IMG/VR virus record: IMGVR_UViG_3300031167_000050
Location: 1-20,475 of that record
Length of the DNA stretch: 20,475 bases
Source: a virus
Reading direction: 5' to 3' (one strand)
In this document: piece by piece, positions 3,386 to 20,475 of the stretch
How positions within the stretch are numbered: position 1 is the first letter of the stretch
Layout of the letters: each line of letters opens with the position of its first letter
Translations under genes and position numbers: made by a program
Notes under the pieces: generated by a model
Databases searched by the model: none
Told to the model about the DNA's origin: nothing
The model's input: the letters and a program-made list of their open reading frames with translations, nothing else

Positions 3386-3405
3386 TAGGTTCTCCGTTTG
3401 GTTGC

Positions 3406-3543: not shown

Positions 3544-3558
3544 CTTATTTCTCCTTTA

Positions 3559-3723
3559 TTATTGAGGTTGTGGACATTTACAGTCACACGTTTGTTGTGG
3601 ATTTATCATTTGCATACTACCTTGCATTACCTGTTGAGGCATTGACATCATTTGATTAAAGAAAGCAAAAGCTGTTGCTGTTACAATCATACTTGCTAAA
3701 AAGATTATTGTAGATTTATTCAT
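3559..3723 (-). CDS. 54-residue membrane/secreted small protein with CxCxC tail
   Basis: The frame begins MNKSTIIFLASMIVTATAFA, an N-terminal signal peptide or membrane anchor, continues with a Met/Gln-rich stretch (six Met within residues 25-39), and ends in TCDCKCPQPQ. Its ATG overlaps the stop of the upstream membrane protein by four bases (ATGA), which argues for coupled translation. The C-terminal CxCxC could bind metal or form disulphides outside the cytoplasm. There is no lipobox, so it is not clearly a lipoprotein. I know no family for it. It sits in the cluster of membrane and secreted proteins that may handle lysis or the envelope. Confidence 0.65.
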   Translation of the reverse strand: MNKSTIIFLASMIVTATAFAFFNQMMSMPQQVMQGSMQMINPQQTCDCKCPQPQ

Positions 3724-4064
3724 AGTGATAACGGGTTTCCTGTTGAGTTTACTTTAGTATCAACACGATCTTGGTCTTTTCTTAATGCTTTTATTTTTTC
3801 AGACAAGCTAATGATAGCTCCTGAGTTTACTCTTGTAATTGCTTCTAGCGCAGTATCGTCATATGTATATGTATAAACAGGTGTTTTTTCATGAGAAGAA
3901 ACATTTAGTGCCTCTATATCAGCTAGTACCGTCTCGTACTTCTGAAGAGCTAACATCCCTGAGAATACTAAACCACCAATAGCAATAGCTATAGTTACAA
4001 TCCAGCTTGCTGACATCTTCTTACCTTCTAATGCTTCTTTAATAAAATTGATTATTGCTTCCAT
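3720..4064 (-). CDS. Small membrane protein with periplasmic coiled coil (inner-membrane spanin-like?)
   Basis: A 114-residue protein with one clear membrane segment (about residues 18-42, SWIVTIAIAIGGLVFSGMLAL) after a short charged N-terminus, followed by a hydrophilic tail with helical, heptad-like stretches (VLADIEALN; ISLSEKIKALRKDQDRVDTKV). That topology fits an i-spanin or other envelope-associated phage protein but is not diagnostic. The start ATG lies inside the end of the upstream gene (26-base overlap) and is preceded by AGGGA five bases upstream. The stop overlaps the 54-residue gene (ATGA). No enzymatic motif is visible. Confidence 0.7.
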   Translation of the reverse strand: MEAIINFIKEALEGKKMSASWIVTIAIAIGGLVFSGMLALQKYETVLADIEALNVSSHEKTPVYTYTYDDTALEAITRVNSGAIISLSEKIKALRKDQDRVDTKVNSTGNPLSL

Positions 4065-5253: not shown

Positions 5254-5797
5254 CTTTGACTCCCGTGTTTAGTGAACCGTCTTTGTTTAAGTAGCCTGCG
5301 TCAATAAGTATTTGCTTATTAGCTACATATTCTTGAAAGTCAGGTCTCAGCTCAGGGTAAGCGTTCCAATATCCTGCAGCTGCACTACCAATCTTACCTT
5401 TAGCAGGACAAGGTGTGCCTGACATAATCATAGCTTGGAATACTCTAGGGTCTTGACATAATAAAGCAATAGAGGCTACCTTCATACCACCCTTACGCAA
5501 TTCACGACTAAGTTTGAGTCTCTCACAGTTAGCATCAATCACAGTAGTACCAAATGATAATCCAATCACATTTGATTGAACACCACCACTAACACCACTA
5601 ACACATACATCAGAATTACTTACTGAGATACTTGGAGCTTTAGCACCACCTACAGGTTGGTTCTTATGGTCAACCGTAGAGGCGCTTGTGTTGTTTGAAG
5701 TAGAATTAACAGTTGAGTTTGATGTAGTAGTGGTTGTATAGGTGTTGTCAACAGCGTGAGCTGTAGTAACAAGCAATGCTAGTAATAGTGCTTTCAT
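5207..5797 (-). CDS. Secreted marine-phage-type hypothetical protein
   Basis: A 196-residue protein with a signal peptide (MKALLLALLVTTAHA) and then a Thr/Ser/Asn-rich linker (about residues 19-45). The conserved-looking core around residues 90-135 reads CERLKLSRELRKGGMK, ASIALLCQDPRVFQAM and GTPCPAKGKIG. I associate this LSR-LRK-GM...ALLCQDPRV...AGTPCP pattern with uncharacterised proteins of marine phages near holin genes. Cysteines in the core could form disulphides in the periplasm. The ATG overlaps the preceding stop by one base (TAATG), with GGGGAG just upstream. A role in lysis or envelope passage is possible from position only. Confidence 0.75.
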   Translation of the reverse strand: MKALLLALLVTTAHAVDNTYTTTTTSNSTVNSTSNNTSASTVDHKNQPVGGAKAPSISVSNSDVCVSGVSGGVQSNVIGLSFGTTVIDANCERLKLSRELRKGGMKVASIALLCQDPRVFQAMIMSGTPCPAKGKIGSAAAGYWNAYPELRPDFQEYVANKQILIDAGYLNKDGSLNTGVKVEKVTSFKPSTSNWN

Positions 5798-6228
5798 TAT
5801 CTCCCCTTAGCAAGTGATGCACCGAAGTACATTTCAACTATTAAGCTAGTCCATCCGAATATCTCATCATACTTAACCAAGCCTCTAACCATCGTATATT
5901 CAACAGTATCAGAAGTAATATCAAAACCTAGAAAGCTAATACCTTCAGTAACGATAGGAATAGCAGTAGGAAGGTCAAATATAATAGGAGCAAGGACATA
6001 AACAGTAATCAAGGCAAGCATCACCCAAATGATTAATCGTCTGTTTAAGGCAGCCATAGGGCTTTCTTTATTAGCAGCGATACGAGCAGCATCTACAGCT
6101 TGTGATCTAGCAGCAAACGCATCTAGCATTTGTGACTGTTGTTCTGCTTTAGCTTGTTGATTAAGAGCAAACAACTTCATTAAGAAGCCACCTAAGATAG
6201 GTGCTATGCTTGTTAATAGACTAATCAC
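5797..6228 (-). CDS. Holin-like membrane protein
   Basis: A 143-residue protein with a hydrophobic N-terminal segment (residues about 2-20, ISLLTSIAPILGGFLMKLFA), a charged Gln/Ala-rich helix (about 23-60), and a second strong membrane segment (about 65-90, LIIWVMLALITVYVLAPIIF); a weaker one may lie near the C-terminus (TSLIVEMYFGASLA). Similar proteins in marine phages are often annotated as holins, which form inner-membrane lesions at lysis. The start is GTG and overlaps the end of the hidden 43-residue gene by eight bases. No endolysin lies beside it in this window, so the holin call stays tentative. Confidence 0.7.
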   Translation of the reverse strand: MISLLTSIAPILGGFLMKLFALNQQAKAEQQSQMLDAFAARSQAVDAARIAANKESPMAALNRRLIIWVMLALITVYVLAPIIFDLPTAIPIVTEGISFLGFDITSDTVEYTMVRGLVKYDEIFGWTSLIVEMYFGASLAKGR

Positions 6229-6352
6229 AAGACTTTAGCCAAGCATCTAACTTGAGCATTATTCGGTTACACATCAACTTAACCTTATTAATAGCAGTCA
6301 CCTTTAAGTATCTACCTCTACTGTCTCTAGTCTTTTGGTCTGTTCTAGCCAT
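6221..6352 (-). CDS. 43-residue basic small protein (unknown)
   Basis: A frame too short for usual ORF cut-offs fills the apparent gap between two membrane-protein genes. It reads MARTDQKTRDSRGRYLKVTA and continues with INKVKLMCNRIMLKLDAWLK before ending SCD. It overlaps the upstream gene by eight bases (ATGGCTAG) and the downstream GTG start by eight bases (GTGATTAG), the same overlap style used elsewhere here, and GAGGAT precedes the ATG. The protein is basic and helical, with two cysteines. Exact packing between both neighbours is the main evidence that it is a gene. Function unknown. Confidence 0.6.
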   Translation of the reverse strand: MARTDQKTRDSRGRYLKVTAINKVKLMCNRIMLKLDAWLKSCD

Positions 6353-6596
6353 GGTCTATCCTCATGTGTTTCCATATTTGGTCAATCTTTTTAGACTGAG
6401 CGTCTAGCATTTTCTCAATCTTTTCAGTCGTGTGAAGAAACTCATCACGATGTATAAAGTCTTTATGCAAACCTATCTGACAGCTAGTCATATTATGCTC
6501 TAAGTCTTTAATATCCTTCATTATTGATTTAACAACTCCGCCTGTTATAGCTGAGAGAACACTGACAAATGCCAATATTATTTCTGATAGTTCCAT
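6345..6596 (-). CDS. Small membrane-anchored coiled-coil protein
   Basis: An 83-residue protein with an N-terminal membrane segment (residues about 3-25, LSEIILAFVSVLSAITGGVV) and a hydrophilic helical remainder with heptad-like spacing (KDIKDLEHNM; TTEKIEKMLDAQSKKIDQIW). The layout resembles small phage holin-associated or i-spanin-like proteins such as those with a DUF-type single-TM plus coiled coil. AAGGAA lies upstream of the ATG. It begins the membrane/secreted cluster that continues to 3436, directly after the U32-like gene. No catalytic residues are seen. Confidence 0.7.
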   Translation of the reverse strand: MELSEIILAFVSVLSAITGGVVKSIMKDIKDLEHNMTSCQIGLHKDFIHRDEFLHTTEKIEKMLDAQSKKIDQIWKHMRIDHG

Positions 6597-6619
6597 TCAT
6601 AATTCCTTAATCATTTTTT

Positions 6620-7549
6620 TTATAATAAATAAAGGCACTGTTGCCTATCCCAATCGTCATCAAAAACATGGCTAATCATTTTTATAATAGGAAGCCTTAC
6701 AGCTTCCTCTGAATTTGGAGAGCGCCCACTCAATTTGAAATTCCTTACCCCTAGACTGTAAAGATTATCAACATCCTTCTTAGTAGATATAATAAAACCT
6801 TTATCTTGTTTAGTTTTCAAAGCAAGACCTTGTATGACTTTTTCTCTAGGGCATAGATTATTATATAAATCAACCTCCTTTCCAAAGTATAACTCTTGTT
6901 CTGTGTCTGTGGTCGCATTGTTACCCATAGCAACTAAGTCATAATGGTGTTTTCTTATACTGCAATTATAAGTACATCTCTCATCTAGTAACACTTCAAT
7001 TTTATTAATATTATTCAAAGACTCTATTAAGGCGTAATCTTTATTGTCGTCAGGGTGCAGAACAACTTTATCAAATCTATCTGTTAATGAGTTATAGTAA
7101 GATGCCGTTCTTTTATGTGGAAGGTCGTTAGTAACTTTAAGAATTGATGATTTTGTTTTTAGGTTGGGGTACTTATCTTTTATATAGTCAAAAAGATAAT
7201 CACTTGTAAGTATAACTCCATTACCCACATTAGGCTTGTTAGCGGTGTCTAGTAAAAAGTTACCAACATAGTCGCTTATATTAGTAGAGTCTATGTATGA
7301 ATTTGTAAATGTAAAGAAAGTATTAATACCAAGAGAGTTAGTCTCGTCTATGTATTCTGTTACTCTTTTCTCATCATTTAAACGAAAAGCTCCTGTTGTT
7401 CTTCCACCATTCCAACGTGTTAGTAAAGAGCCATATATTGTTCCTATAGGTAGTTTTTTTCCATAAGTGTTCTCAATATAATTCAAGAATGGCAAGGGTA
7501 GAGAGTGGAATAAACTAGGTAAGGAGAAATGACAATCAGTAAAATTCAT
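6620..7549 (-). CDS. U32-peptidase-like TIM-barrel protein, possible iron-sulphur enzyme
   Basis: A 309-residue protein. The C-terminal end has VDNLYSLGVRNFKLSGR (about residues 260-276), which closely matches the 'elGv..fKL.GR' signature of the U32 family (UbiU, UbiV, RlhA, TrhP), and an upstream barrel strand (DKVVLHPDD, then INKIEVLLDERCTYNC) also matches in order. Cysteines C192, C196 and C233 (with C305 at the C-terminus) are placed where U32 proteins ligate a [4Fe-4S] cluster. Members known from bacteria take part in rRNA/tRNA or ubiquinone hydroxylation, often with prephenate as oxygen-related cofactor source. A phage substrate is unknown. The start overlaps the hidden 57-residue gene (ATGA). 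The region is AT-rich with many ATA codons, suggesting acquired cargo. Confidence 0.6.
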   Translation of the reverse strand: MNFTDCHFSLPSLFHSLPLPFLNYIENTYGKKLPIGTIYGSLLTRWNGGRTTGAFRLNDEKRVTEYIDETNSLGINTFFTFTNSYIDSTNISDYVGNFLLDTANKPNVGNGVILTSDYLFDYIKDKYPNLKTKSSILKVTNDLPHKRTASYYNSLTDRFDKVVLHPDDNKDYALIESLNNINKIEVLLDERCTYNCSIRKHHYDLVAMGNNATTDTEQELYFGKEVDLYNNLCPREKVIQGLALKTKQDKGFIISTKKDVDNLYSLGVRNFKLSGRSPNSEEAVRLPIIKMISHVFDDDWDRQQCLYLL

Positions 7550-7719
7550 AGTGTATTACTCATTCTTTCTTTCAGGTATTTGTACATAGTGAAATTTCCT
7601 ATAACCTCGGTCTCTCTTTCATTTTTAAACCTAATCTCCCCCTTATCCCCCTTCCATTCTATAGACTTTATATTTGGATCTATACCTAGATTAAATATTG
7701 GGGGTTTTTCGTTTTTCAT
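7546..7719 (-). CDS. 57-residue truncated relative of the fibre-associated protein at 8554
   Basis: This frame is too short for usual cut-offs but is bounded on both sides by four-base ATGA overlaps: with the sulfotransferase stop and with the U32-like start. Residues 9-34 (FNLGIDPNIKSIEW then KGDKGEIRFKNE) align without gaps to residues 21-46 of the 129-residue protein encoded at 8554-8943 (FDFTIDANIHAIEW then NGSTGNVQFKDN), with 12 of 26 identical. It lacks that protein's C-terminal helical half, retaining only a short helix (MYKYLKERM). GAGG precedes the ATG. It is probably a duplicated N-terminal domain; its job may be to serve a fibre or the two flanking enzymes. Confidence 0.7.
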   Translation of the reverse strand: MKNEKPPIFNLGIDPNIKSIEWKGDKGEIRFKNERETEVIGNFTMYKYLKERMSNTL

Positions 7720-8543
7720 AGGACCTCAGGGTAGAATTTTTCATAGAACGGTAAAAAATCACTGACAATGCTAGCGTTTAAATCGCTATATAAAATGTCG
7801 TCAAAGTCTTCAACTGTATCTGAATTAAACTCAAGAGTTGACACATTATGTAGGCATGGGGTTTTGTTTACTATGTCTGCTAAATAATCTTCTTCAGGTT
7901 TATAGGGTTTAATTTTATCGAAGTCTATAGATATTTCTAAGAAATCATACATCTTCCTTATTTCAGACTGTGTGTCTGTCAATAAATCTTCAAACCTTAT
8001 AATTAAGAAATCATTATTATTAAAAGAGCCGTCACTAAGCATGCTCATTATTCGATTCAGGTAAAAACCTAAAGCCCTGTTTTCTGTAGACAACAACCAT
8101 AAAGCCCTTGACCTTTTACTTGATAAGTCTATATCTTTAGGATAAATTGCAGACTTTGTTGTAGCTGTCTTTTGATAATAACTCTCAAACGAGGCTAATA
8201 TCCCCCTAATATCTCTAACCAACAATATTGCTTTAGCTTTCGGTCTTAATGCTTTTAACACTCTAAAATCTGTTGACCAGCCTCGGTCTTTGTCTATGAT
8301 AATTTGATTTGTTTTTACTCCCGACCATGAATCTATAAAAGCATTTATAGCTGACTTAGTCCTGTCAATATAGTTAAAAGAGTTTAGGCAGGGTGAGTCG
8401 TCTATAATATCTATCATCTTATCAACAATAAAATAGTTCTCACTATTGGAACACACGCACAAACGAGGGTCTTGAGATAGTATTTTAGAAAGTTTGGTTG
8501 ACCCTGAGCGTGGCATCAAACCTAATGCGACATAATCAGTCAT
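7716..8543 (-). CDS. Sulfotransferase family protein (PAPS-dependent)
   Basis: A 275-residue protein with the classic sulfotransferase layout. Residues 10-20 (MPRSGSTKLSK) form the 5'-phosphosulphate-binding loop; residues 105-123 (AILLVRDIRGILASFESYY) form the 3'-phosphate-binding strand with R110 and S118. FEDLLTD near residue 184, followed by a helix ending FLEI, matches the usual YEDLL...FLG tail. Known members move sulphate from PAPS to sugars, lipids or tyrosines. No signal peptide or membrane segment is present, so it is cytoplasmic. No clear Shine-Dalgarno sequence precedes its ATG. It follows the tail fibre cluster and is coupled to the next two genes. Sulphation of host surface glycan or of a phage protein is inference only. 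Confidence 0.75.
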   Translation of the reverse strand: MTDYVALGLMPRSGSTKLSKILSQDPRLCVCSNSENYFIVDKMIDIIDDSPCLNSFNYIDRTKSAINAFIDSWSGVKTNQIIIDKDRGWSTDFRVLKALRPKAKAILLVRDIRGILASFESYYQKTATTKSAIYPKDIDLSSKRSRALWLLSTENRALGFYLNRIMSMLSDGSFNNNDFLIIRFEDLLTDTQSEIRKMYDFLEISIDFDKIKPYKPEEDYLADIVNKTPCLHNVSTLEFNSDTVEDFDDILYSDLNASIVSDFLPFYEKFYPEVL

Positions 8544-8553
8544 AGTTAAATAA

Positions 8554-8943
8554 TTAGTTTTTTGGGTATTTATCTTTTATCACTTTAATAGCATCACTCC
8601 AACCAACAATACCATTGTGATAAATATCATCCAGTTGCTCTATAATGCTAGGATATTCTACAGAGCGCTTATCTGCATAAGTCATATTAGAAATTCTATC
8701 TACTTCTTTCTGTATTTCAAAAGCTACCAACCTTTGTTTTTCAGCAGCGTGAGCATCAACTAAAGATTGATAAGCAGTAATTTCTGTAAATTCTTCATTT
8801 GGCGTATTGTCTTTAAACTGTACGTTACCTGTTGAGCCATTCCACTCAATAGCGTGAATATTTGCATCAATAGTAAAGTCGAAGTTAATTGCTTCTCCAT
8901 CAATTTGAATCATTCTGTCGTCTGTAATTACACATACATTCAT
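8554..8943 (-). CDS. Tail-fibre-associated small protein, chaperone-like
   Basis: A 129-residue protein. The N-terminal half is beta-rich with AIEWNGSTGNVQFKD, the 'i.a.eW.g..G..e' motif frequent in phage proteins coded next to tail fibres. The C-terminal half is helical and ends in YPSIIEQLDDIYHNG, then W, then KDKYPKN, a conserved-looking tail seen in fibre-assembly or neck-associated marine phage proteins. It overlaps the upstream gene by one base (TAATG) and is separated from the sulfotransferase by only ten bases. A fibre chaperone or fibre-attached role is plausible; the function is not established from sequence. Confidence 0.7.
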   Translation of the reverse strand: MNVCVITDDRMIQIDGEAINFDFTIDANIHAIEWNGSTGNVQFKDNTPNEEFTEITAYQSLVDAHAAEKQRLVAFEIQKEVDRISNMTYADKRSVEYPSIIEQLDDIYHNGIVGWSDAIKVIKDKYPKN

Positions 8944-9242
8944 TAGTGCTCTCCTAATATTTTATTTTTTTTCTTAACTATCTTGTTAAATTCTTCTTGA
9001 CCTTTTACAGTCTCATTTCTAAAACTCTCTAGTGCTTGAGTTTGACCTCTATTTGTATTAGACATCTCAACTTGTAGCATAGGCATCCAACTCATAGAAC
9101 ACGCCCAATCATCCACTTCTTTACCTGTGTTTGGGTCTAGTCCTACCATCTTAGTGTACCAAGCACAACGCTTGATAACACCATCTACAGCTTCTTCACA
9201 AGTTGAACCTAAAGGGCAAAAGAACTCTACTTCTAATGCCAT
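8943..9242 (-). CDS. Cysteine-containing fibre-cluster hypothetical protein
   Basis: A 99-residue protein with CPLGSTCEEAVDGVIKRCAW near the N-terminus (C9, C15, C26) and DDWACSMSWMPMLQVE (C48), followed by a helical region with ESFRNETVKGQEEFNKI. The cysteine spacing suggests a metal site or disulphides. I recognise the CPLG-CEE...RC.W...DEW.C..AWMP pattern as recurrent in marine phages beside tail fibre genes, but no function is known to me. It is joined to both neighbours by one-base TAATG overlaps, consistent with coordinated synthesis with the fibre. Confidence 0.75.
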   Translation of the reverse strand: MALEVEFFCPLGSTCEEAVDGVIKRCAWYTKMVGLDPNTGKEVDDWACSMSWMPMLQVEMSNTNRGQTQALESFRNETVKGQEEFNKIVKKKNKILGEH

Positions 9243-11599
9243 TAGTCTTTACTACAAACAATTACGTTTATGTATTGAGGTGCAAATGCTGTAGGAGTTG
9301 ATGAGCCTGAAGTGCCTGATACTGCTACAGTATGTGTATGAGCGCTCGCACTACTTGTAGCACCTGTGCCACCTGCCCCTGTAGTTCCACTAGCAGAACC
9401 TGAAGTGCCTGAACCACCACTTGTGATACTACCTGCTAATGAGTGACTATGAGAGCTAGAGCCGCCCTTGCTGCTAGTAGAAGCATTAAATGAGTATTGA
9501 GCGCCAGAAGCCCTGTCAACATTACCAGGTGAACTACCCCAACCACTTTTTACTGAAAGACTATGATTATGACTAGGCATCTGAGATACACTCAATGTAT
9601 GCGAACCCGCACTTAAACTATGAGAATGAGAGTGACTAGGCGTACTATGAGTATGTGAAGCGCCTGAGTGAGTATGTGAAGCACCTGTGTGACTATGAGC
9701 GCCCGCACTAGAAGTAGTAGATGATGAATCACTAAAACTATGCGTGTGAGCTGTGCTAGGAGGTGAGCTAAATGCGTGTGTACCACCTGTACCACCACCT
9801 GTACCACTAACTACTCTTAATCCTTTATCGTTATTAGTTGTGACCTGTGTCCAAGAGGTAGGTGCTGATGCTTGATAAAACACCATAACCGTTCCACTAG
9901 GAAAAGAGACAGGTGCTGAATAACCAAGGTCAGATAGTGTTAATGTACGAGTAGAGACTGTACCATTGGCATCTGTAACGTGACCCGAAGTATCTGTTGT
10001 AACATTAATATCAATATCACTGATTACTGTAGCACCTGTTAAAGCACCTGAGTCCACACTAAAATCGTCTCCTGGATGTGAAGGATGAGCATAGTTATTA
10101 GCACTTGTGGCGATGCCGTCTAGTTTAGTATTATCAGCTGAAGTAAAGTTCTTTTGTGTAAGACCGTTGTCACCTACTGAGTAAGTTGTATTGTTATCAG
10201 GGATAGTTACTGATTCGCTAGTACCATCGCCCTTATAAAGACTTACCGTATGACCTGATAATCTAAGAGCATCTGTTGCGTGTAAAGAGCCTTTTTCGGT
10301 ATCGTGTACAACGCTAGAAGGTAATGAATAATTGTTTGCACCTGTAGCTACGCCTGATAGTTTAGTTTGTTCAGCATCACTAAACTCGTTACTATTAGCA
10401 TTAGCTTCATAAGCAGTCTTTATCTGAGCATTGGTTTGGTCTGCTGTAGCACCTGTTTCAATGCCATTTAACTTAGCTGAGTTTAGCTCTGTATCTGTAA
10501 CAGCGTTTGCTACAATTTGAGCATTAGAAGCAGTACCTGATAAATCACCACCCATAGTCGGGTCAGCTGAGATACTTGTCCAAGTCATTGTACCATCAGC
10601 ATCTGAGCCTAAGTATTGTCCTGCTGTACCATTACCTGTTACATTTAATTCTGAAGCGCCTACTGAGTTAGCATCAATCTGACCAGCAGCTACACTACCT
10701 AAAGTAGCTAGAGCCGCTAACCCTAAGTTTGTTCTAGCTGTACCTGCATTATTTAAGTCTGATAAGTTGTTAGTTTGTAATAAAGCACCTGAAAGAGAAG
10801 CATAAGCAGCAACCCAAGAAGAGCCTTCATACACAAACATAGCGTCACTGGTACTATTAAAGTATAAAGTACCACCAGCTAAGGCATTACCATCATTATC
10901 TAATGTAGGGTTACTAGTTTTCTGACCTAAGTATCTATCATCAAATGAATCAAATGAAGCTAAAGCTGAATCTCTTGCTGCTTCTGCCGCTGCTTGAGCG
11001 GTTGTGGCGCTAGAGGCTGAGCTACTTGCGTTAGTCTCTGAAGTTCCAGCGTTAGTTTCTGAAGTTCCTGCTGCTGTAGCTGATGTGCTTGCATTACCTG
11101 CTTGTGTTGTAGCAATACCAGCTTGAGTCGTAGCAGTAGAAGCCTTAGTCGTAGCAATACCAGCCTGTGCTGTTGCGGTTACTACATCTGCAGCGGTATC
11201 AATCGTGTCTTGGTTTGTAGCTACTAAGTCAGCGGCTGTTGCAACTGTATCTGCTGCTGTAAGAATTAAATCTGCTGCTACTGCTGCTCTATCTGAGCCA
11301 GTTTGTACCTTATCAGCTTCTGCTAAAACTACATCAGCTGCTGTGGCAACTCTGTCTAATCCTGTTTGTACTTTATCAGCCTCTGCAAGGACAACATCAG
11401 CATTGGTTAATACTAAATCTGCTGCTACGTTAGTCTCTGCTAATTCTGCTGCTGTTTTAGCTGTCTCAGCTGCTACCTTAACATCTAAGAATCGTTGGGT
11501 TGAGAACTTTTTAGAAGTACCACTATCATTGATTAGCACCTCTTCAGTACCTACCATTGTGGTTTTCTCGGTTAATGCTGAAATCTTAATTGATGCCAT
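9242..11599 (-). CDS. Tail fibre with alanine-rich shaft and histidine-rich collar-type tip
   Basis: A 785-residue fibre. Residues about 40-210 form an Ala-rich, heptad-like coiled shaft containing an exact repeat (ADVVLAEADKVQTG at 67-80 and 88-101, period 21 residues) and later Thr/Ala/Ser/Gln repeats. A YLGQKTSNPTLDNDG segment near 223 starts the middle beta-rich part. From about residue 565, GTVMVFYQASAPTSWTQ matches the phage tail collar-type fibre tip. The tip is then crowded with HxH motifs (HTHS, HSHT, HSHSHS, HNHSL), which in related fibres bind iron or zinc. The end PTAFAPQYINVIVCSKD is typical. GGAG lies upstream of the ATG. This protein is the likely receptor-binding element. Confidence 0.85.
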   Translation of the reverse strand: MASIKISALTEKTTMVGTEEVLINDSGTSKKFSTQRFLDVKVAAETAKTAAELAETNVAADLVLTNADVVLAEADKVQTGLDRVATAADVVLAEADKVQTGSDRAAVAADLILTAADTVATAADLVATNQDTIDTAADVVTATAQAGIATTKASTATTQAGIATTQAGNASTSATAAGTSETNAGTSETNASSSASSATTAQAAAEAARDSALASFDSFDDRYLGQKTSNPTLDNDGNALAGGTLYFNSTSDAMFVYEGSSWVAAYASLSGALLQTNNLSDLNNAGTARTNLGLAALATLGSVAAGQIDANSVGASELNVTGNGTAGQYLGSDADGTMTWTSISADPTMGGDLSGTASNAQIVANAVTDTELNSAKLNGIETGATADQTNAQIKTAYEANANSNEFSDAEQTKLSGVATGANNYSLPSSVVHDTEKGSLHATDALRLSGHTVSLYKGDGTSESVTIPDNNTTYSVGDNGLTQKNFTSADNTKLDGIATSANNYAHPSHPGDDFSVDSGALTGATVISDIDINVTTDTSGHVTDANGTVSTRTLTLSDLGYSAPVSFPSGTVMVFYQASAPTSWTQVTTNNDKGLRVVSGTGGGTGGTHAFSSPPSTAHTHSFSDSSSTTSSAGAHSHTGASHTHSGASHTHSTPSHSHSHSLSAGSHTLSVSQMPSHNHSLSVKSGWGSSPGNVDRASGAQYSFNASTSSKGGSSSHSHSLAGSITSGGSGTSGSASGTTGAGGTGATSSASAHTHTVAVSGTSGSSTPTAFAPQYINVIVCSKD

Positions 11600-11608
11600 T
11601 TATTACTC

Positions 11609-11854
11609 CTATTCTATTACTATGTATGTCGGTAAGTTACGTGGTGATGATTCAATTATGATACCAAAACCCTCACCTGAAGCTATCTCTGTATCAGGGG
11701 TGTATTCTATCCCGTACTCTCTAATCCACTGTCTCTTATTAGCAAGCATAGCTAATGTCTTACCCTTTCTCCACTGAAGGCGAACGACAGAAGGCTGTTT
11801 ACGAGTTAAACTCCTAATTTTGCCGCGTCTGTCTATTCTAGTTTTCTTTGCCAT
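11609..11854 (-). CDS. Small basic hypothetical protein
   Basis: An 81-residue protein with a very basic N-terminal half (MAKKTRIDRRGKIRSLTRKQ, then WRKGKTLAM, NKRQWIREYG) and a more neutral beta-rich C-terminus (FGIIIESSPRN, TYIVIE). There is no known domain, signal peptide or membrane segment. The basic N-terminus could contact DNA or RNA. It overlaps the preceding gene by one base (TAATG) and ends just before the fibre's ribosome-binding site, so it is expressed with the fibre. I do not recognise a family. Confidence 0.7.
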   Translation of the reverse strand: MAKKTRIDRRGKIRSLTRKQPSVVRLQWRKGKTLAMLANKRQWIREYGIEYTPDTEIASGEGFGIIIESSPRNLPTYIVIE

Positions 11855-12402
11855 TACAGTCTAAATAACTCTCTTCGTCTGCCAATATTTTGTCTAGCCT
11901 TTAAAGCTGTAAGCTCATCTCGCATCATCTCAGCCATTGGTGCGAAGCTTCTAATAACTTTAGCGTCTTTTCTTGGTGCTATCTTACCACTTTGTGCGCC
12001 ATAAGTGCTTGATTTTACTGAAGTTTTAGAGTCTCCAGGGGTCTTAGTCATTGAGTGTTCTGACTTATAAGTAGTAGCTTCAATCTTACCTTTCTCATTG
12101 TTAGCTTTAAGCTGAGAACCTGAGTATGTTGGGGCTTTAGAATCACCTTTAACCGACTCAAGCTCCTCATCAGGAGACATCATGTCATCTAGCATAGCCA
12201 TCAGGTTGTCCATTTCAGATTCTTCTTCAGGATCATCAGCAAAGTGAAGAGCATTAGCTTTCATGTACTCTTCTTCAGACATCTCATCTTCATACTTATT
12301 GAATGTCTCTTGTAACATGTGCATCCATACTTCTTGTAGCTTACACTTGAATCTATCAAGCTCTAATCCACCAGATGTTGAGTCTTCTAATATATCAAAC
12401 AT
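11854..12402 (-). CDS. Acidic hypothetical protein downstream of the capsid cluster
   Basis: A protein of 182 residues. Its first half is acidic and Met/Glu-rich (EDEMSEEEYMKAN, DDPEEESEMDNLMAMLDDM, SPDEELE), then a Ser/Thr/Lys-rich linker, then a basic end (APRKDAKVIRS, LKARQNIGRRRELFRL). The open frame reaches an ATG at 12414 without a visible ribosome-binding site, overlapping the zinc-ribbon gene by 20 bases. The ATG at 12402 has GGGAAG just upstream and gives an eight-base overlap (ATGTTTGA), like other junctions here, so I prefer it. Function unknown; acidic-then-basic architecture could suit a virion or assembly protein. Confidence 0.7.
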   Translation of the reverse strand: MFDILEDSTSGGLELDRFKCKLQEVWMHMLQETFNKYEDEMSEEEYMKANALHFADDPEEESEMDNLMAMLDDMMSPDEELESVKGDSKAPTYSGSQLKANNEKGKIEATTYKSEHSMTKTPGDSKTSVKSSTYGAQSGKIAPRKDAKVIRSFAPMAEMMRDELTALKARQNIGRRRELFRL

Positions 12403-12631
12403 AGTTCTTCCCATTTGTGTTTAATCGTTTGTTCTCACGCATATTCCAACGGTGTGTATCAGCTGCAAAAGAGCGATAATCTTGACCAAATTGGAAATTA
12501 GTGCAGAATGTTAGTTCATAGTAAGAAGGTTCTCCGCAGTCTGGACAGACTTGTGGTTCTTCACGTTTACTGTAAGAAACTATATTATCTTCAGTATGGT
12601 TATTTTTACATTTATAAGTAAATAGCGGCAT
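12395..12631 (-). CDS. FmdB-type zinc-ribbon protein
   Basis: A 78-residue protein starting MPLFTYKCKNNH with C8, H12, then C29-P-D-C32 and a further C43, the spacing of the FmdB-family zinc ribbon (usually CxxCx(n)CxxC, here the first knuckle is CxxxH). FmdB proteins are small zinc-ribbon proteins of uncertain regulatory role. The C-terminal part (DYRSFAADTHRWNMRENKR) is not typical of that family and could be a phage addition. AGGA lies six bases before the ATG. It follows the capsid gene after a hairpin at 12655-12680. Confidence 0.8.
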   Translation of the reverse strand: MPLFTYKCKNNHTEDNIVSYSKREEPQVCPDCGEPSYYELTFCTNFQFGQDYRSFAADTHRWNMRENKRLNTNGKNYV

Positions 12632-12654
12632 AACTAATCCTAATTAATTCAGAA

Positions 12655-12680
12655 TAGCCCTCTCATCTAGACAAGGGCTA
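12655..12680 (-). terminator. Hairpin after the major capsid gene (possible attenuator)
   Basis: TAGCCCT (12655-12661) and AGGGCTA (12674-12680) form a perfect seven-base stem with a twelve-base loop in the only sizeable gap of the head-gene region. On the minus strand it is followed by TTCTGAATTAATT, not a real U-run, so it is at most a weak terminator, or a processing or mRNA-stability site. A stem directly after a capsid gene would raise its expression over the genes downstream. Confidence 0.4.
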
Positions 12681-12698
12681 CGCTTAACTAACTAACTA

Positions 12699-13616
12699 CT
12701 ACGACTGTGGACATACGAACGCTACACCAGCGTAATCACGTAATCCAGAAACACCGTAAATAGTATCAGCAGTAAACAAGTCACCTAAGTATTCTTGTTT
12801 GTACTGAGTTTGCGAACGAACGCCAACTTGCTCTGCAAGAACTAAAGCGTCTTTATGCATTAACATACCTACACGACCAGTTGTACTGATTGAAGGACAG
12901 TTATTAGTTACCAACACATCTACACCGTAGATTTGTCCGATAGTACCATTCTTAATAGCATCACCGTTACCAATGAACTGTTGCTCAGTGAAACGTGAGA
13001 TAGCTAATAAGTCATTAGCAGCTACTGGAGGTAGTACTAAAGAACGGTTATCCATAGGAACATCAGAATTATCTAACTTGAGAATCATCTGTCTGATACC
13101 AGCGTCAGTAAGAGCTGAAGCATTACTAGAGTTACCAGTGTATAACGTAGTACCGTTACCGATTACAGCTTTCTCCCATAAATTAGCGGCTGCGCCACCT
13201 GCTGTTCCACCTTGGAACTCTTCAGCTAAAGCGAATAAGTCATCTTCCACTTGATTAGCTAGTGCATAACCAGCGTCATCAGTGTAGAACTTACGCATTG
13301 AAGCTAATGCTTGAACTTCAGCAATATCTTCAATCAACTTCGAGTATTCGTAGTGTTTGTTAATGCTAATTGCTACAACACCTGCTGTATCAGCAATCAT
13401 TGTAACCTGTGAATTAGCAGCTTTTACAGATGCAGTACCACGAGCAGGAACAGGGATATTAATAGTATCGCCTTTCTTACCTTTGTGAGACATCTTTGTA
13501 ACTAAGTTTGCAACAACTAAGTTTTGTTTGTACGCACCAATAACTTCATCCGACCATAGAGCAGGGATGAAATTAGCTGATGTTGTAATCGTACTATGGT
13601 TAGTACCTAAACCCAT
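12699..13616 (-). CDS. Major capsid protein
   Basis: A 305-residue protein. The N-terminal SANFIPALWSDEVIGAYKQN, followed by LVTKMSHKGKKGDTINIPVP and later HYEYSKLIEDIAEVQALASMR, is typical of phage major capsid proteins with the HK97 fold. A Gly/Ala-rich middle (about residues 137-150) and VSGLRDYAGVAFVCPQS at the end fit too. It lies straight after the scaffold gene in the same direction, as expected. The ATG is preceded by AAGGAGAAATAAG, one of the strongest initiation sites in the window. No cleavage-protease domain or prolonged N-terminal arm is seen. Confidence 0.85.
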   Translation of the reverse strand: MGLGTNHSTITTSANFIPALWSDEVIGAYKQNLVVANLVTKMSHKGKKGDTINIPVPARGTASVKAANSQVTMIADTAGVVAISINKHYEYSKLIEDIAEVQALASMRKFYTDDAGYALANQVEDDLFALAEEFQGGTAGGAAANLWEKAVIGNGTTLYTGNSSNASALTDAGIRQMILKLDNSDVPMDNRSLVLPPVAANDLLAISRFTEQQFIGNGDAIKNGTIGQIYGVDVLVTNNCPSISTTGRVGMLMHKDALVLAEQVGVRSQTQYKQEYLGDLFTADTIYGVSGLRDYAGVAFVCPQS

Positions 13617-13637
13617 CTTATTTCTCCTTATTGAGTA

Positions 13638-14435
13638 TTATTTAACGCGCCCTTCCTGATATGCAATAGTTATCTCATCTGATAAATCTGCATACCTTTG
13701 AGGGTCGCTCACTTGTAGGTTGATTAAATCACTCCTACGATACATCTTCTTACCACCAACAGAATCTCCTGAAGATCGAGTCTCTGAACTGGTTTGTCGC
13801 ATTGCCTTCTTTCTCTTATTTTCTTCAGCCTTATTTACTGCTTGTGTCTTATCGATCATTGAAATTTGCTTCCAAGTACCTAATAATTCATTTGCAGAGT
13901 TGAAGTCATAATTAGCATCGGCTCTGCGGAACAGCTCGGTACGAATACCACTCTCTCCCACCCACTTTTGAAAGTCGCTATTACCAATAACATCCATGAA
14001 ATCAGGATGAGTTGACTCTAACTGTGTTAAATTAGCTTTTTGGGCTGACTTAACGTTACCTTCTCTAGCTTTGACAATTTCTGGATGATTTTCTATCGCT
14101 GAGTTAACTGCTTTCGCAGGGTCATCGTAAAAATTATCTTCAAAACTGACATTTTCTTCTGTTGTCTCAGCAGTTTGACCAGCCTGTGACTTGGACATAA
14201 GTTGTTCGATTAGCTGACGCTGATCTCCGACTGTCTGACCTTGTGAACCAAACGCCCTTTCGACATTTTGGTGCATGTTAATCACATCCTCTAATGACTT
14301 CCCAGCATACTTCTCTGGAACTACATATTCTGGCTCTGCTTGAATTTCTTCTTGCTGAACCTCTTGTGTAATTTCTTGAGTTTCTGTTACCTGTTCGCCT
14401 ACACCTTCGGGTGCTACATCTACTACTATACTCAT
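13638..14435 (-). CDS. Capsid scaffolding protein
   Basis: A 265-residue, highly charged, helix-rich protein. An acidic Gln/Glu-rich N-terminus (about residues 1-35) is followed by PEKYAGKSLEDVINMHQN and VERAFGSQG, the motif seen in podoviral scaffold proteins (PEKF.GKS.ED......E...G..G). The long charged middle (EENKRKKAMRQTSSETRS) and a basic tail around MYRRSDLINLQVSDPQRY fit a protein that binds and is later lost from the capsid. It is between the portal/78-residue gene and the capsid gene, which is the normal place. GGAG lies nine bases upstream of the ATG. Confidence 0.8.
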   Translation of the reverse strand: MSIVVDVAPEGVGEQVTETQEITQEVQQEEIQAEPEYVVPEKYAGKSLEDVINMHQNVERAFGSQGQTVGDQRQLIEQLMSKSQAGQTAETTEENVSFEDNFYDDPAKAVNSAIENHPEIVKAREGNVKSAQKANLTQLESTHPDFMDVIGNSDFQKWVGESGIRTELFRRADANYDFNSANELLGTWKQISMIDKTQAVNKAEENKRKKAMRQTSSETRSSGDSVGGKKMYRRSDLINLQVSDPQRYADLSDEITIAYQEGRVK

Positions 14436-16745: not shown

Positions 16746-17996
16746 TTAATATCCTGCGACCTCATCTTCAGGCTGCCAATCGTCTTCAAGCTCGATTGTG
16801 TGGGCGAAATCAGCAACAGACACTTGATCAATGTACGCAAGAGCGTCCAACATATCATCATGTGATAATCTATTAGGGAAATCAACCATCTGAGAGATAA
16901 ACGGTCGCCAATCTCTATCTTCATTGAACGATATTTGACCATGTTCCATTCTACCTTGTAAAGACCATACAATTCTGTCAGCCTTTTTCTTACCACCATG
17001 TCTCATCTCAATAATCGATACATATTGACCTTGTGTTCGCATCTCATCCTCTAAATAAGGCAAGATAGCGTTCTTCAGCGAACCAGTTTCAATACCAACA
17101 GTCGAAGATTCAACAATTACCGCAGATGTAAGTATCTTTCTAGCTGTTTCCTTGATATTCCAACGACCATGTAGTATATCTTTAACCCACCACTTGTCTC
17201 TATCTATCTTAACAATAGCAATAGCAGTTTCATCAAGTCTTGATCGTTTCAAATTACGTTCTTTCTCAATAGCTTCAAATCCAGCAGGATCAATAGCAAT
17301 AACATACGACCCCTCTTCTGGTTCTTCTGCTGTTTTAAACCATTCCTCTTTAAACACACCACCAGAGAAGGTTTCAAAGGATGCTTCAAACTCTTGACGA
17401 AATGACATAGACGACATAGAGTCTCTTGCAGCTTCAATTTCATCATCAGGAATAAACGGGTTATCAGTTGAGTTAAACTGGAAGGCTTCCCAGTCATCTA
17501 GCTTCATTGCATCTTGATAAACGTCATAGAAGTGATTCTTACCTGCTGGAGTACCAATAAACATAGCACCACCACGAACGTCCGCAAGAGTAGGTCGAAT
17601 AATCTGTTCCCACACGTTAGGTTTCATAGAAGCGTACTCATCTAGTACAACATAAGCCAAACCAACACCACGCAATGTATCAGGTCTATCAGATCCTTTC
17701 AAATAGATCTTCCTACCGTTTACAAGCGTTAATACAGCAGTGTTCTCATGAGCAGCAACGATCAAATCTTCACCTAGCTCTTTTAACATCGCCCACATAA
17801 TGTCTTTAGATTGTTGAAACGTAGGACCAATATAAAACACGTCTTTTGAATCAGACTGTAAAGCTTTAATTAACAAGATCCAAGCAGCAAGCCTAGACTT
17901 ACCGAATCTACGTCCAGCAGCCACAGCTTTAAATCTAGCAGTTGAATTGAATATCTCTAACTGAGCAGGATGAAGGTCAACGTTTAATTCAGGCAT
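16746..17996 (-). CDS. Terminase large subunit
   Basis: A 416-residue packaging motor. The ATPase has the Walker A AAGRRFGKS (residues 26-34, K33) and Walker B AYVVLDE (114-120, D119/E120), with the coupling segment FIGTPAGKNHFY at 147-158. The nuclease part shows YVIAIDPAG (D236), SRLDETAIAIV (D255), VGIETGSLK and a C-terminal HDDMLDALAYID (D380/D381/D384). Family members are usually about 410-600 residues, so this is a short but complete form. Its ATG is inside the end of the 35-residue ORF (eight-base overlap, ATGCCTGA), with AAAGGA eight bases upstream. It moves DNA into the capsid and cuts it with the small subunit. Confidence 0.92.
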   Translation of the reverse strand: MPELNVDLHPAQLEIFNSTARFKAVAAGRRFGKSRLAAWILLIKALQSDSKDVFYIGPTFQQSKDIMWAMLKELGEDLIVAAHENTAVLTLVNGRKIYLKGSDRPDTLRGVGLAYVVLDEYASMKPNVWEQIIRPTLADVRGGAMFIGTPAGKNHFYDVYQDAMKLDDWEAFQFNSTDNPFIPDDEIEAARDSMSSMSFRQEFEASFETFSGGVFKEEWFKTAEEPEEGSYVIAIDPAGFEAIEKERNLKRSRLDETAIAIVKIDRDKWWVKDILHGRWNIKETARKILTSAVIVESSTVGIETGSLKNAILPYLEDEMRTQGQYVSIIEMRHGGKKKADRIVWSLQGRMEHGQISFNEDRDWRPFISQMVDFPNRLSHDDMLDALAYIDQVSVADFAHTIELEDDWQPEDEVAGY

Positions 17997-18096
17997 CCTT
18001 CTTTTCCTTTTGTTCTTTAACTAACTTCCTAAGCTTTTCAAGTAGCTTACTTTGCCTAGCTTGTCTAGCCCAGTAATTTTCAGGTAGTTCATTCAC
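17989..18096 (-). CDS. 35-residue protein between the terminase subunits
   Basis: This short frame starts with GTG overlapping the small terminase stop (GTGA), preceded by GAGG seven bases upstream, and ends inside the start of the large terminase (ATGCCTGA, eight-base overlap). It reads VNELPENYWARQARQSKLLE then KLRKLVKEQKEKKDA: a charged, helical, probably coiled-coil peptide with no membrane segment. Overlaps at both ends and a good ribosome-binding site make it likely to be translated. It could couple expression of the two terminase subunits, or act with them. It is too short for usual annotation limits. Confidence 0.65.
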   Translation of the reverse strand: MNELPENYWARQARQSKLLEKLRKLVKEQKEKKDA

Positions 18097-18479
18097 TCTA
18101 TAACCTCACCTACTTCAATTATCAAATCATCATCTTGCTTAGTTTTAGGATTAACAAGTTTAGCAGGATCAGTATCAGCTATCTTAGCCTCTATTCCAGT
18201 AGAAGCACCAACATTAATAATAATCTTAGAGTCTTGTTTTGTTCTACTAGGATCAACAGCTTTATGAACAGGCAAGATACGATCAATACACATCTTCAAA
18301 CAATGAACATCACCATCCATAGCCATATCAACAATCTTCTGTACGATGTCAGGCCCTTTCTCGGTCATCATTTCTCTAGCTAGTAGTGTGTACTTGTTAC
18401 GAATACCCTTAGGTCTTCCTAAAGGATTCATAGCCTTACCCTTCACCATTGCAGGATTACCACGTCTTTTCTCTGTCAT
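18093..18479 (-). CDS. Terminase small-subunit-like protein
   Basis: A 128-residue protein with GNPAMVKGKAMNPLGRPKGI near the N-terminus, the 'NP.GRPKG' motif typical of DUF5681/small-terminase-like proteins, a helical middle (LAREMMTEKGPDIVQKIVDM, then CIDRILPVHKA) and a more acidic end (DDDLIIEVGEVIE). Small terminases recognise the packaging site on phage DNA. It lies immediately before the large subunit, the standard arrangement, and the ATG is preceded by GGGAG about nine bases upstream. The adjacent noncoding 1 kb is therefore the natural place to look for its binding site. Confidence 0.78.
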   Translation of the reverse strand: MTEKRRGNPAMVKGKAMNPLGRPKGIRNKYTLLAREMMTEKGPDIVQKIVDMAMDGDVHCLKMCIDRILPVHKAVDPSRTKQDSKIIINVGASTGIEAKIADTDPAKLVNPKTKQDDDLIIEVGEVIE

Positions 18480-18514
18480 TTAATTATCTCCCTGTAAGAG
18501 GTTAAAGTATCATT

Positions 18515-18545
18515 ATTATATACTGAAGCAAATACATAAACATAA
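18515..18545 (-). promoter_or_regulatory. Possible minus-strand promoter for the packaging operon
   Basis: A perfect TATAAT (18515-18520 read on the minus strand) lies about 35 bases before the small terminase start, with only weak -35 candidates (TATGTT/TTTATG) about 17-18 bases further upstream. It is placed divergently from the plus-strand promoter at 18567. Proposed from the -10 box and position only; a phage RNA polymerase promoter could replace it. Confidence 0.35.
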
Positions 18546-18566
18546 ACAATATCAATATATTATGAC

Positions 18567-18595
18567 TTGACAGTATTCGTTTCGTCAGCTAAAAT
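18567..18595 (+). promoter_or_regulatory. Strong plus-strand sigma70-type promoter without a downstream gene
   Basis: TTGACA (18567-18572), exactly 17 bases, then TAAAAT (18590-18595): a full -35 and five of six -10 bases. Transcription would start near 18602, on a palindrome TAACTAGTTA (18602-18611) that could be an operator. It is the only convincing plus-strand promoter in a window otherwise coded on the minus strand. Confidence 0.6.
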
Positions 18596-18601
18596 CCTTC
18601 T

Positions 18602-18706
18602 TAACTAGTTAGCCAACACATAGTAGTAATCACTTATCCCTTCTAAAGCTAACATAGTTAATGCGGATAGCCTCTTATGGCTATATTCCCATTTCTCCTC
18701 TTTTTT
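18602..18706 (+). ncRNA. Candidate short noncoding RNA
   Basis: If the promoter at 18567 is used, the transcript crosses a hairpin (ATAGCC 18667-18672 with GGCTAT 18679-18684, extendable by G-C pairs across a bulge) and reaches six T at 18701-18706. The longest frame inside is a 15-codon one starting at 18661 without ribosome-binding site. The T-run is 16 bases past the stem, so it is a poor terminator and the RNA end is uncertain. No family is recognised. Confidence 0.25.
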
Positions 18707-18778
18707 GAAATCCCGTTTTTTCTGTCTTGGGTATAGCATCCATTACTGCAAGCAAGCAAGTGAGCCTCCCCCTATCGA

Positions 18779-18794
18779 TTAGCTTAAAAGCTAA
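18779..18794. repeat. Perfect inverted repeat
   Basis: TTAGCTT and AAGCTAA are separated by two bases. It is a candidate protein-binding site; no adjacent gene start makes it clearly an operator. Confidence 0.4.
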
Positions 18795-19144
18795 AAAGAT
18801 ACACTCTTAAACATAGCTTAAAGCCTTACATAGCAACGATTAAACGCCAGCTTACACAATATGAGAGATAAAAAGAAAATGAGTAGGATTAGCAACCCAG
18901 GCTTATTTACTCCAAACCCTTATAGATCCTGGCTAACAATTAACTAAGCATCTACTAATCTTATTGATCTAATGATCCTGGCCTTCATAGATCACTTAAT
19001 CCTGGTTGATCTCTTCTAACTGATCAACTTCTATTCATTCCAGATCGTATGATCCTGGATCGTTTTATCTTTGATCGTAGCTAATTTATCTTTTATCGGA
19101 GCAAAAACGCTTGATCCTGGATTGATTTAACTTCCAAAAACCAT

Positions 19145-19173
19145 TTGACAGACTTCCAGAAGTTTAATTTAAC
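19145..19173 (+). promoter_or_regulatory. Promoter-like box overlapping a palindrome
   Basis: TTGACA (19145-19150), 17 bases, then TTTAAC (19168-19173, four of six). The spacer contains the inverted repeat ACTTCCAGAAGT (19152-19163), the usual place for a repressor operator. The -10 box is weak and there is no gene downstream on the plus strand. Confidence 0.3.
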
Positions 19174-19356
19174 TTCCTACATGACTTCCAATGCTTCCCA
19201 GGCTTTAAAAATTACCAGGTATTGATCAAACTATTTACCAGGCTATGATCAAAAAGTTATTAACAATTATTAATACAAAATAATGCTTTGACAGTAGTAT
19301 CTTAACACCTGGCCGCCAAATACTTATCCACTAAGTTATACAAAAGCAACAGGCAC

Positions 19357-19380
19357 AAAAAAACCAGCAATTAATGCTGG
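19357..19380 (-). terminator. Rho-independent terminator of the small-gene cluster
   Basis: On the minus strand, CCAGCA, a five-base loop TTAAT and TGCTGG (plus-strand 19364-19380) form a six-base GC-containing stem followed directly by seven U. It lies about 95 bases after the last gene of the three-gene cluster (19476-20268), so it ends that operon before the noncoding region. Confidence 0.75.
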
Positions 19381-19475
19381 CTTAATATTCCCCCCTTTTA
19401 ACTGATCAACTGAATAACTGATCTATTACCGCTTGAATCATTAGATCAACCGCCATTAACGCCTGGATCAACTGA

Positions 19476-19799
19476 TCAAGCATTGGCAAACGCTTTTAGA
19501 TCGTTCAAATGATCTTCCAGGATTTGATCGTTACCCGTTACAAGATCCCAAAAGCCAGGCTTGATCTGATACGCTCTCATTCCTACAACCTTTTCGGGGA
19601 AGCCTTTATATAATCTCATAATGTTTGATCCATCTGCATGAGCCATAGTCAAAGATAGTTTATTTTCAAACCCTCCCAGGCCTCCAAACTGCCAACCTTT
19701 CAAAAAGTTAATATCGCTATCGTTATAAACCTCCTCCAGGCTTGCATTTAGTATCCATGTATCTAAAGCTATTAATTTTCTTGTGTTTGATCTTCCCAT
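19476..19799 (-). CDS. 107-residue hypothetical protein
   Basis: A protein of mixed composition with Trp and Gly features (ALDTWILNASLEEVYND, FLKGWQFGGLGGFENKL, KPGFWDLVTGND) and a helical acidic end (QILEDHLNDLKAFANA). No motif, membrane segment or signal peptide is seen. It is the last gene of the coupled cluster; its ATG overlaps the previous stop (TAATG). Dense CCWGG and GATC within it are shared with the noncoding flank. Unknown function, probably an early or accessory phage protein. Confidence 0.65.
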   Translation of the reverse strand: MGRSNTRKLIALDTWILNASLEEVYNDSDINFLKGWQFGGLGGFENKLSLTMAHADGSNIMRLYKGFPEKVVGMRAYQIKPGFWDLVTGNDQILEDHLNDLKAFANA

Positions 19800-19987
19800 T
19801 ACATGCCCGCCTTTATTATTAGTAGTTGATCTAATACACTTTGTTTAGATCCTTTTAAGTTATATTCCACCTTTGCCATTTTATAAGCCGAAGTGCCTGA
19901 TTTTTTCATACCTAAAATTTCAAGCTTTAGCGCCTGGATCAAAGATAGAAACCTAAAACAATTAATTTCTTTTTGTTTAATTAACAT
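19799..19987 (-). CDS. 62-residue hypothetical protein of marine-phage type
   Basis: A small protein with a helical pattern (NCFRFLSLIQALKLEILGMK, then GTSAYKMAKVEYNLKGSKQ, LDQLLIIKAGM). The 'LEILGMK..G.SAY...K.E....GSKQ.V' stretch is one I associate with short proteins of marine phages of unknown function. GGAGG lies seven bases before its ATG, which overlaps the upstream stop by one base. It was kept because of the ribosome-binding site and coupling. Confidence 0.65.
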   Translation of the reverse strand: MLIKQKEINCFRFLSLIQALKLEILGMKKSGTSAYKMAKVEYNLKGSKQSVLDQLLIIKAGM

Positions 19988-20268
19988 TAGTTAACCTCCG
20001 TTATTGAATTGATCAATGCATCTTGTAAATGGATCGTTGCAAGTGTTTCGCTGTTAATACTTTGAAACGTGTATCCGATGTTATCGGCCAGGTTAAAAGA
20101 CTCTACCAGGCTTGCATCATTTTCGGCCAGGTATTGCATTGCCTTATGGTAGTAAATTATCTCTTGCTCCTGGCACCACTCTATCGCTTGATCGTAATCT
20201 TCAAACTTCATAATTTCACCGTGATATGTATCATCTACTGAGTAACTTTCTTTTATATCGTTTTGCAT
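19987..20268 (-). CDS. 93-residue acidic hypothetical protein
   Basis: A small acidic protein, predicted mostly helical (DYDQAIEWCQEQEIIYYHKA, MQYLAENDASLVESFNLADN, then TLATIHLQDALINSITEVN), first in the cluster. It has no signal peptide or membrane segment and no domain that I recognise. GGAG is eight bases upstream of the ATG and a TATAAT lies about 50 bases upstream. Acidic, short, first-in-operon proteins in phages are often early host-takeover factors; this is only analogy. Confidence 0.65.
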   Translation of the reverse strand: MQNDIKESYSVDDTYHGEIMKFEDYDQAIEWCQEQEIIYYHKAMQYLAENDASLVESFNLADNIGYTFQSINSETLATIHLQDALINSITEVN

Positions 20269-20317
20269 AATCTAATCTCCATGATTAAAAACAAGATCAA
20301 AATTGATCCATGCCGAA

Positions 20318-20352
20318 ATTATAACCTGGCCTGGCCTGGCATATTATTCAAT
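20318..20352 (-). promoter_or_regulatory. Promoter for the right-hand gene cluster with a CCTGG repeat spacer
   Basis: A perfect TATAAT (20318-20323, minus strand) precedes the first gene by about 50 bases. No good -35 is found at 17 bases; TTGAAT occurs 22 bases upstream. The spacer is occupied by the CCTGG repeat (20325-20340). A regulator acting there, or a non-sigma70 polymerase, could compensate for the missing -35. Confidence 0.45.
20325..20340. repeat. Tandem CCTGG triplet
   Basis: Three CCTGG copies in direct contact, a short tandem repeat made entirely of Dcm-type CCWGG sites, inside the spacer upstream of a TATAAT. Elsewhere in the left 18 kb such sites are very rare. Confidence 0.75.
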
Positions 20353-20393
20353 TTGAAATATTAATTTTATTAAAAATCCCTATGTTACGGGCG

Positions 20394-20428
20394 AAAAAAA
20401 ACCCACCTTAGTAAAAACTTTAGGCGGG
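20394..20428 (-). terminator. Terminator for a gene entering from the right edge
   Basis: On the minus strand CCCGCCT and AGGTGGG (plus 20402-20428) can form a seven-base stem with one G-U pair, followed by eight U. It would end a transcript coming from beyond the window; the three minus-strand frames all close at stop codons within about 35 bases of the edge, so an entering gene would end just before it. Confidence 0.65.
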
Positions 20429-20429
20429 C

Positions 20430-20475
20430 TTTACGTTAACCGTTACGTGATCGTTACGTTGGCGTTACGTTGGCG
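20430..20475. repeat. 11-bp tandem repeats (iteron-like) at the window edge
   Basis: Four consecutive 11-base units: TTTACGTTAAC (20430-20440), CGTTACGTGAT (20441-20451), CGTTACGTTGG (20452-20462) and CGTTACGTTGG (20463-20473), then the start of a further unit. The shared core is CGTTACGT. The period of one helical turn suggests protein binding on one face of the DNA. The array runs off the window. Confidence 0.7.

Follow-up and report, generated by a model that had tools for sequence, protein, structure and literature searches.

Arrays of GATC and CCWGG words beside the packaging genes of uncultured, mostly marine phages

The locus upstream of the terminase genes

IMG/VR record IMGVR_UViG_3300031167_000050 holds 20,475 bases of viral DNA, all of which we analysed and call the window. 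Its structural genes run leftward, in window coordinates, from a DUF5681 gene in the position of the small terminase subunit (TerS) and the gene for the large subunit. Upstream of these packaging genes lie a noncoding gap and then three small genes. Our subject is an array, spread over part of the gap and over the genes, of two short words: GATC and CCWGG (W is A or T). These are the recognition words of Dam-type and Dcm-type enzymes respectively, common host DNA methyltransferases.

How dense is this array? Counted by script, 34 of the window's 68 GATC copies fall at 18925-20449 and 23 of its 30 CCWGG copies at 18897-20335, both within 18880-20475; the original prediction, which had reported an enrichment of Dam/Dcm-type sites here from counts by eye, was correct to within one. 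All four copies of GATCCTGG in the window lie at 18925-19120. A first-order Markov model of the same 1.6 kb expects 4.6 GATC (P~1e-18) and 1.5 CCWGG (P~1e-19). Models of order 1-3 trained on the whole window, with 400 simulations each, are likewise exceeded: they give means of 5-7 GATC per 1.6 kb with a maximum of 16, and means of 1.4-1.8 CCWGG with a maximum of 6. Neighbouring GATC sites are at most 30 bp apart in 21 of 33 gaps (median 21 bp), and no helical phasing of the sites was seen.

The two words differ in how their peaks are embedded. Contig L120 overlaps both ends of the window (5096 bases at 99.8% identity and 372 at 96%), and joining the two gives a circular map of about 34.1 kb. 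Along this map CCWGG peaks only in the array, over about 2 kb. GATC stands at 17/kb in the array, at 3-15/kb in the early half and at 0-3/kb in most of the tail half, where 12 copies are observed over 14 kb against 44 expected. The GATC peak therefore sits on a gradient, with the word enriched in the early genes next to it and scarce in the tail half. No GATC occurs between 18285 and 18924.

Word frequency shifts abruptly near 18.88 kb, as it might if two unrelated sequences had been misjoined in assembly, a cause that the original prediction had raised. The junction or its continuation is found, at 96-99.9% identity, in L005, L006, L108 and L120 (IMG records 3300031655, 3300031703 and 3300031628). 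Since L005, L006 and L108 come from three metagenome records other than the window's and carry the same junction, it is not a misjoin. This refutes the assembly chimera, and we consider its probability negligible.

Table 1. Features at and near the array (window coordinates)
Feature	Position	Strand	Remarks
Large terminase subunit	16746..17996	-	phrog_2, E=1.2e-42
DUF5681 gene, small-terminase position	18093..18479	-	PF18932, E=1.8e-8
Noncoding gap upstream of TerS-like gene	18480..19475	.	from 18897 on, densest noncoding share of array
Conserved GGGAGGCTC element, candidate cos/pac	18762..18770	-	common to relatives with and without arrays
GATC and CCWGG array	18880..20475	.	34 GATC, 23 CCWGG; runs on beyond right end of window
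Companion motif, two TTAACTTCC	19127..19177	+	copies at 19127 and 19169; further ACTTCC at 19152 and 19184
Terminator-like hairpin after small-gene operon, in array	19361..19383	-	
107-amino-acid gene, function unknown, in array	19476..19799	-	7 GATC, 4 CCWGG
62-amino-acid gene, function unknown, in array	19799..19987	-	3 GATC, 1 CCWGG
93-amino-acid gene, function unknown, in array	19987..20268	-	homologues near other arrays

The surroundings can be described briefly. The early genes of L120 (ERF, RusA and others) are oriented opposite to the structural genes, and GC skew follows the coding strand. Terminase, portal and capsid have only distant matches among cultured phages; the array DNA has no meaningful match in cultured relatives, and the 93-amino-acid protein has none at all. 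Rfam gave no match, and so no structured RNA of a known family. One contig of a metagenome-assembled genome labelled Methylophaga carries a terminase 60% identical to the window's and no array, a link too weak to assign a host. Two copies of a ATTATGACTTGACAGTA-like sequence occur at 18559-18575 and 19280-19296; within the first, TTGACA and TAAAAT, 17 nt apart on the plus strand, make a strong sigma-70-like match that faces the array. At window 20430-20475 and L120 18770-18830, between the 87- and 93-amino-acid genes, CGTTACG / AACGTAACG repeats stand beside a GC-rich inverted repeat with a T run after it; they may be iterons or belong to a terminator region. Two genes, at window 6620-7549 and 7716-8543, lie on the tail side: one lacks a PHROG or NCBIfam match, and the other matches phrog_27463 (unknown function) and by eye resembles a sulfotransferase.

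Relatives and the exchange of words

Two terminase scans yielded about 140 loci from relatives, about 110 of them with enough upstream sequence. These loci are metagenomic fragments, and we label as an array any that reaches at least 10 GATC/kb or at least 7 CCWGG/kb. The array phages belong to an uncultured, mostly marine family. Twelve loci have GATC-only arrays (L076, L126, L109, L125, L127, L128, L141, L142, L145, L026, L013 and L014), three have CCWGG-only arrays (L149 and L159, and L217, added to the set afterwards), and the window's clade has both words; a weaker CCWGG excess appears in L129-L135, L071 and L180. Every array occupies the same position, spanning 1-2.5 kb just upstream of the packaging genes. 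A comparison of 448 palindromic patterns near the terminase singled out GATC and CCWGG, with patterns containing them, as the only ones of this significance; other palindromic words form no comparable clusters there.

Most relatives have neither array, and many lack any GATC in the available stretch. Two GATC-poor examples are a 21-kb stretch with 0 copies against 54 expected (L105/L106, G016) and a 25.5-kb stretch with 2 against 69 (L102/L103, G022). Several relatives also lack ACGT, GCGC, CCGG or GGNCC, the missing set differing from one to the next. Tail modules (L201/L202, G037, 23500-35641; window 1-14000) are nearly free of GATC and GGCC, unlike the rest of their genomes, so avoidance differs by module.

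Most relatives, whether they have an array or not, carry the conserved element GGGAGGCTC about 0.5-1.2 kb upstream of the terminase start, and the arrays lie beyond it, on the side away from TerS. In L217 the exact GGGAGGCTC was not found. Seven contigs end within 120 bp of the element, at mixed distances. The element is a candidate packaging site, the likely packaging start.

This bears on the proposal that the array is a sponge or decoy, whose dense sites keep a host methyltransferase or restriction enzyme occupied in the early stage of infection. The family does show strong avoidance of the kind that restriction produces, with near-zero or zero GATC in several genomes and no ACGT, CCGG or GGNCC in G010 and G036. 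That same avoidance speaks against inviting cleavage at one place, and cleavage in the array would cost the phage a genome end that it needs, should packaging start at GGGAGGCTC. Moreover, 30-60 sites are few against the thousands in a chromosome. We find a decoy distinctly unlikely.

On the terminase tree the array labels are scattered. GATC arrays need four to five changes, and the CCWGG locus L159 has the GATC locus L141 as its sister. The terminase module can be nearly identical whether or not an array accompanies it: L217 has one and L082 does not, despite 97% DNA identity in the TerS region and 92% in the terminase, and the window and L009 form a second such pair. The array sits in an exchangeable cassette between the early operon and the packaging genes.

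What else travels with it? When 8-10-mers were compared without bias in 13 non-redundant array regions and 66 others, TTTTAACTTCCAA stood out as the strongest companion. The companion 9-mer is present in all 13 array regions, and the 10-mers TTAACTTCCA and TTTAACTTCC in 13/13 array against 6/66 other regions; in the redundant set the 9-mer occurs in 23/23 array, 8/8 intermediate and 9/95 other loci. Two genes behave similarly among loci with enough upstream sequence. A gene for a Gp96-like protein lies nearby in 9/10 array, 4/4 intermediate and 4/34 other loci, and a homologue of the 93-amino-acid gene in 9/10, 0/4 and 2/34; all these counts, motif and genes alike, come from related phages and so are phylogenetically confounded rather than independent trials. 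Because the motif and both genes accompany the arrays, we regard the array as part of a cassette. The 9-mer is never downstream of the terminase start among the loci listed. Pairs of the motif elsewhere in viral contigs have no array-level density nearby, among the matches listed, except in one family member. Judged by its sequence, TTTTAACTTCCAA looks like a protein-binding site. The Gp96-like and 93-amino-acid proteins give confident predicted models (mean pLDDT, a per-residue confidence score, of 85 and 86), with which a fold search of the PDB returned no significant match.

Selection on the bare words

Enrichment in coding and noncoding sequence alike had been taken by the original prediction to mean more than codon use, and a codon shuffle of the three small genes upholds it. 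Together these genes (19476-20268) contain 13 GATC against a shuffled mean of 7.6 (P<=0.0007) and 9 CCWGG against 1.3 (P<=0.0003). GATC is also retained between relatives better than other orders of the same four bases: 0.82 versus 0.43 for L109/L126, 0.69 versus 0.32 for L141/L145 and 0.37 versus 0.08 for L109/L141, in MAFFT alignments that could slightly favour shared words. In the L109 clade it is conserved above all 4-mers as well. Array GATC is under purifying selection. Strains close to the window add too few events to weigh: array differences number 11 against L108 and 15 against L006, and one touches a word where about 2 would be expected by chance.

A single gene illustrates the exchange of words. 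The Gp96-like gene holds 5-10 GATC and no CCWGG in dense GATC arrays, 2 GATC in the weaker arrays L013 and L014, no GATC and 11 CCWGG in L149, 3 of each in the window's phage, and neither word in GATC-free L112/L113.

These results bear on the idea that the cassette came from a genome with unusual word use and has no function of its own. Near-identical terminase modules with and without arrays fit such a passive history. Yet the sites are conserved above matched words, coding sequence has been recoded towards the word, and the density exceeds anything that composition predicts; we judge a purely passive history very unlikely. The original prediction's segment from another source is partly borne out, as history, in the form of an exchangeable cassette, but import alone leaves unexplained one GATC per 16-47 bp and two words at one place.

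What is the unit under selection? Flanking positions mostly carry less than 0.2 bit (highest 0.4, with no consistent signal; at most about 0.2 bit around the window's GATC), and once sites are masked, words with one mismatch occur near expectation, without marked excess. Because the flanks are poor in information and near-misses are not in excess, the unit is the bare word. A search for tandem or dispersed repeats, including decayed ones, found only short, loosely matching pairs, and repeats were rejected as a source.

A local mutational or conversion process would also produce exact words. Vsr-like repair, for instance, favours CCWGG. It cannot make GATC, however; it works on the whole genome and would not be confined to about 2 kb, and near-miss words show no marked excess. 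We consider it extremely unlikely.

Could a DNA-binding protein of phage or host, SeqA-like or nucleoid-like, simply coat the region, methylation being irrelevant? Such a coat might serve condensation, or control of replication or transcription. The sites are dense, fixed in place and conserved, and in L109 many adjacent GATC sites lie 5-9 bp apart. Against this stand the near absence of flank preference and the lack of helical phasing. Two unrelated words at one place would require two proteins, and both words are exactly the Dam and Dcm targets, CCSGG (S is C or G) being absent from the window's phage. A binding array of this kind is unlikely.

A possible methylation-responsive cassette and its nearest known systems

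The reading that we favour, by analogy with methylation-gated sites, is that the cassette gives host-methylation-responsive control of packaging or replication; we put its probability at roughly 0.38. Binding or methylation signals for replication or packaging had been among the causes first suggested, and they are the best, though tentative, fit to the place of the array beside the terminase and a conserved packaging-like element, to its companion motif and to the selection on its words. Three points are inferred: methylation of the sites, their recognition by a protein, and the gating of packaging or replication. Host methyltransferases would methylate the array at a rate lagging behind phage replication. 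A phage or host factor would seat at TTTTAACTTCCAA and sense the methylation state of the array (full, half or none), and the state sensed would gate initiation of packaging, or re-initiation of replication nearby, much as methylated GATC may do at the pac site of phage P1. Each lineage's word would then follow from the methyltransferases of its hosts.

Does the phage methylate itself? A check for methyltransferase genes covered three complete or near-complete array genomes: the window with L120, G006 (which has a 361-base end overlap) and G036. Families PF02086, PF00145 and PF01555 gave no match in them; other methyltransferase families were not searched. With none of the three families in the phage, any methylation would come mostly from the host. 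Measurements on some marine phages have found methylation at GATC and CCWGG, ascribed largely to hosts (PMC9516812). Two array-free relatives do carry C5 DNA methyltransferase genes, L107 (G003) at 11985-13001 and L100/L101 (G021) at 23915-25030; G003 and the window share 98% identity in the terminase.

Several points weigh against methylation-responsive control. P1 pac has seven sites, and 30-60 over 1-2.5 kb seem beyond the needs of a gate. Many relatives share GGGAGGCTC and the terminase without an array, so the array is dispensable for packaging in general. A few array-free relatives (L139 and others) have the companion motif as well. Finally, a sensor of both N6-methyladenine and 5-methylcytosine would have to be general, or be swapped when the word changes.

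If methylation is read, Dam- and Dcm-type host marks would serve as a clock or an identity check at the packaging gate, and a phage's word would predict the methyltransferases of its host. Whatever the mechanism, selection here clearly and strongly favours words that phages as a rule avoid, and the natural swaps are built-in controls. The arrays might even be a previously undescribed kind of locus, a methylation readout whose interchangeable word (GATC, CCWGG or both) matches the host's methyltransferases and times packaging or replication; this we hold to be possible but doubtful. In the open-access literature we found no description of such arrays among the results listed, subscription papers lying mostly outside that scope.

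By analogy, P1 pac is the closest known system. It has seven TGATC(A/G) hexamers in 161 bp inside pacA, and Dam methylation has been proposed to control its cleavage (PMC10028697). The likeness is a GATC cluster in packaging-gene DNA. Here, however, dozens of sites extend over 1-2.5 kb, sometimes as CCWGG, and a separate companion motif is present. The window's array stands clear of the TerS-like gene, on its upstream side, and its sites are nearly flank-free, without the hexamer. Because these features of P1 fail, we liken the cassette to pac and do not identify it as one.

Dam-dependent origins offer a second comparison. The density of GATC resembles that of Escherichia coli oriC and P1 oriR, at about one per 16-25 bp in the densest part; as at origins controlled by Dam and SeqA, most of the window's dense GATC sites have a neighbour no more than about 31 bp away. 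In contrast, no initiator gene or origin iteron was identified at the array, and such origins have no counterpart to the CCWGG-only arrays L149, L159 and L217. By sequence the cassette is neither a P1 pac nor a Dam-dependent origin.

Two further systems concern the same words or the same kind of host mark. As where phages avoid restriction sites, selection acts on GATC and CCWGG in this family, but the array shows the opposite sign, a strong local excess. In pelagiphages a host methylation word, GANTC, likewise partitions related marine phages (PMC9516812). There the bias is a difference in density between clades; here it is a local array, fixed in place, whose words are interchangeable.
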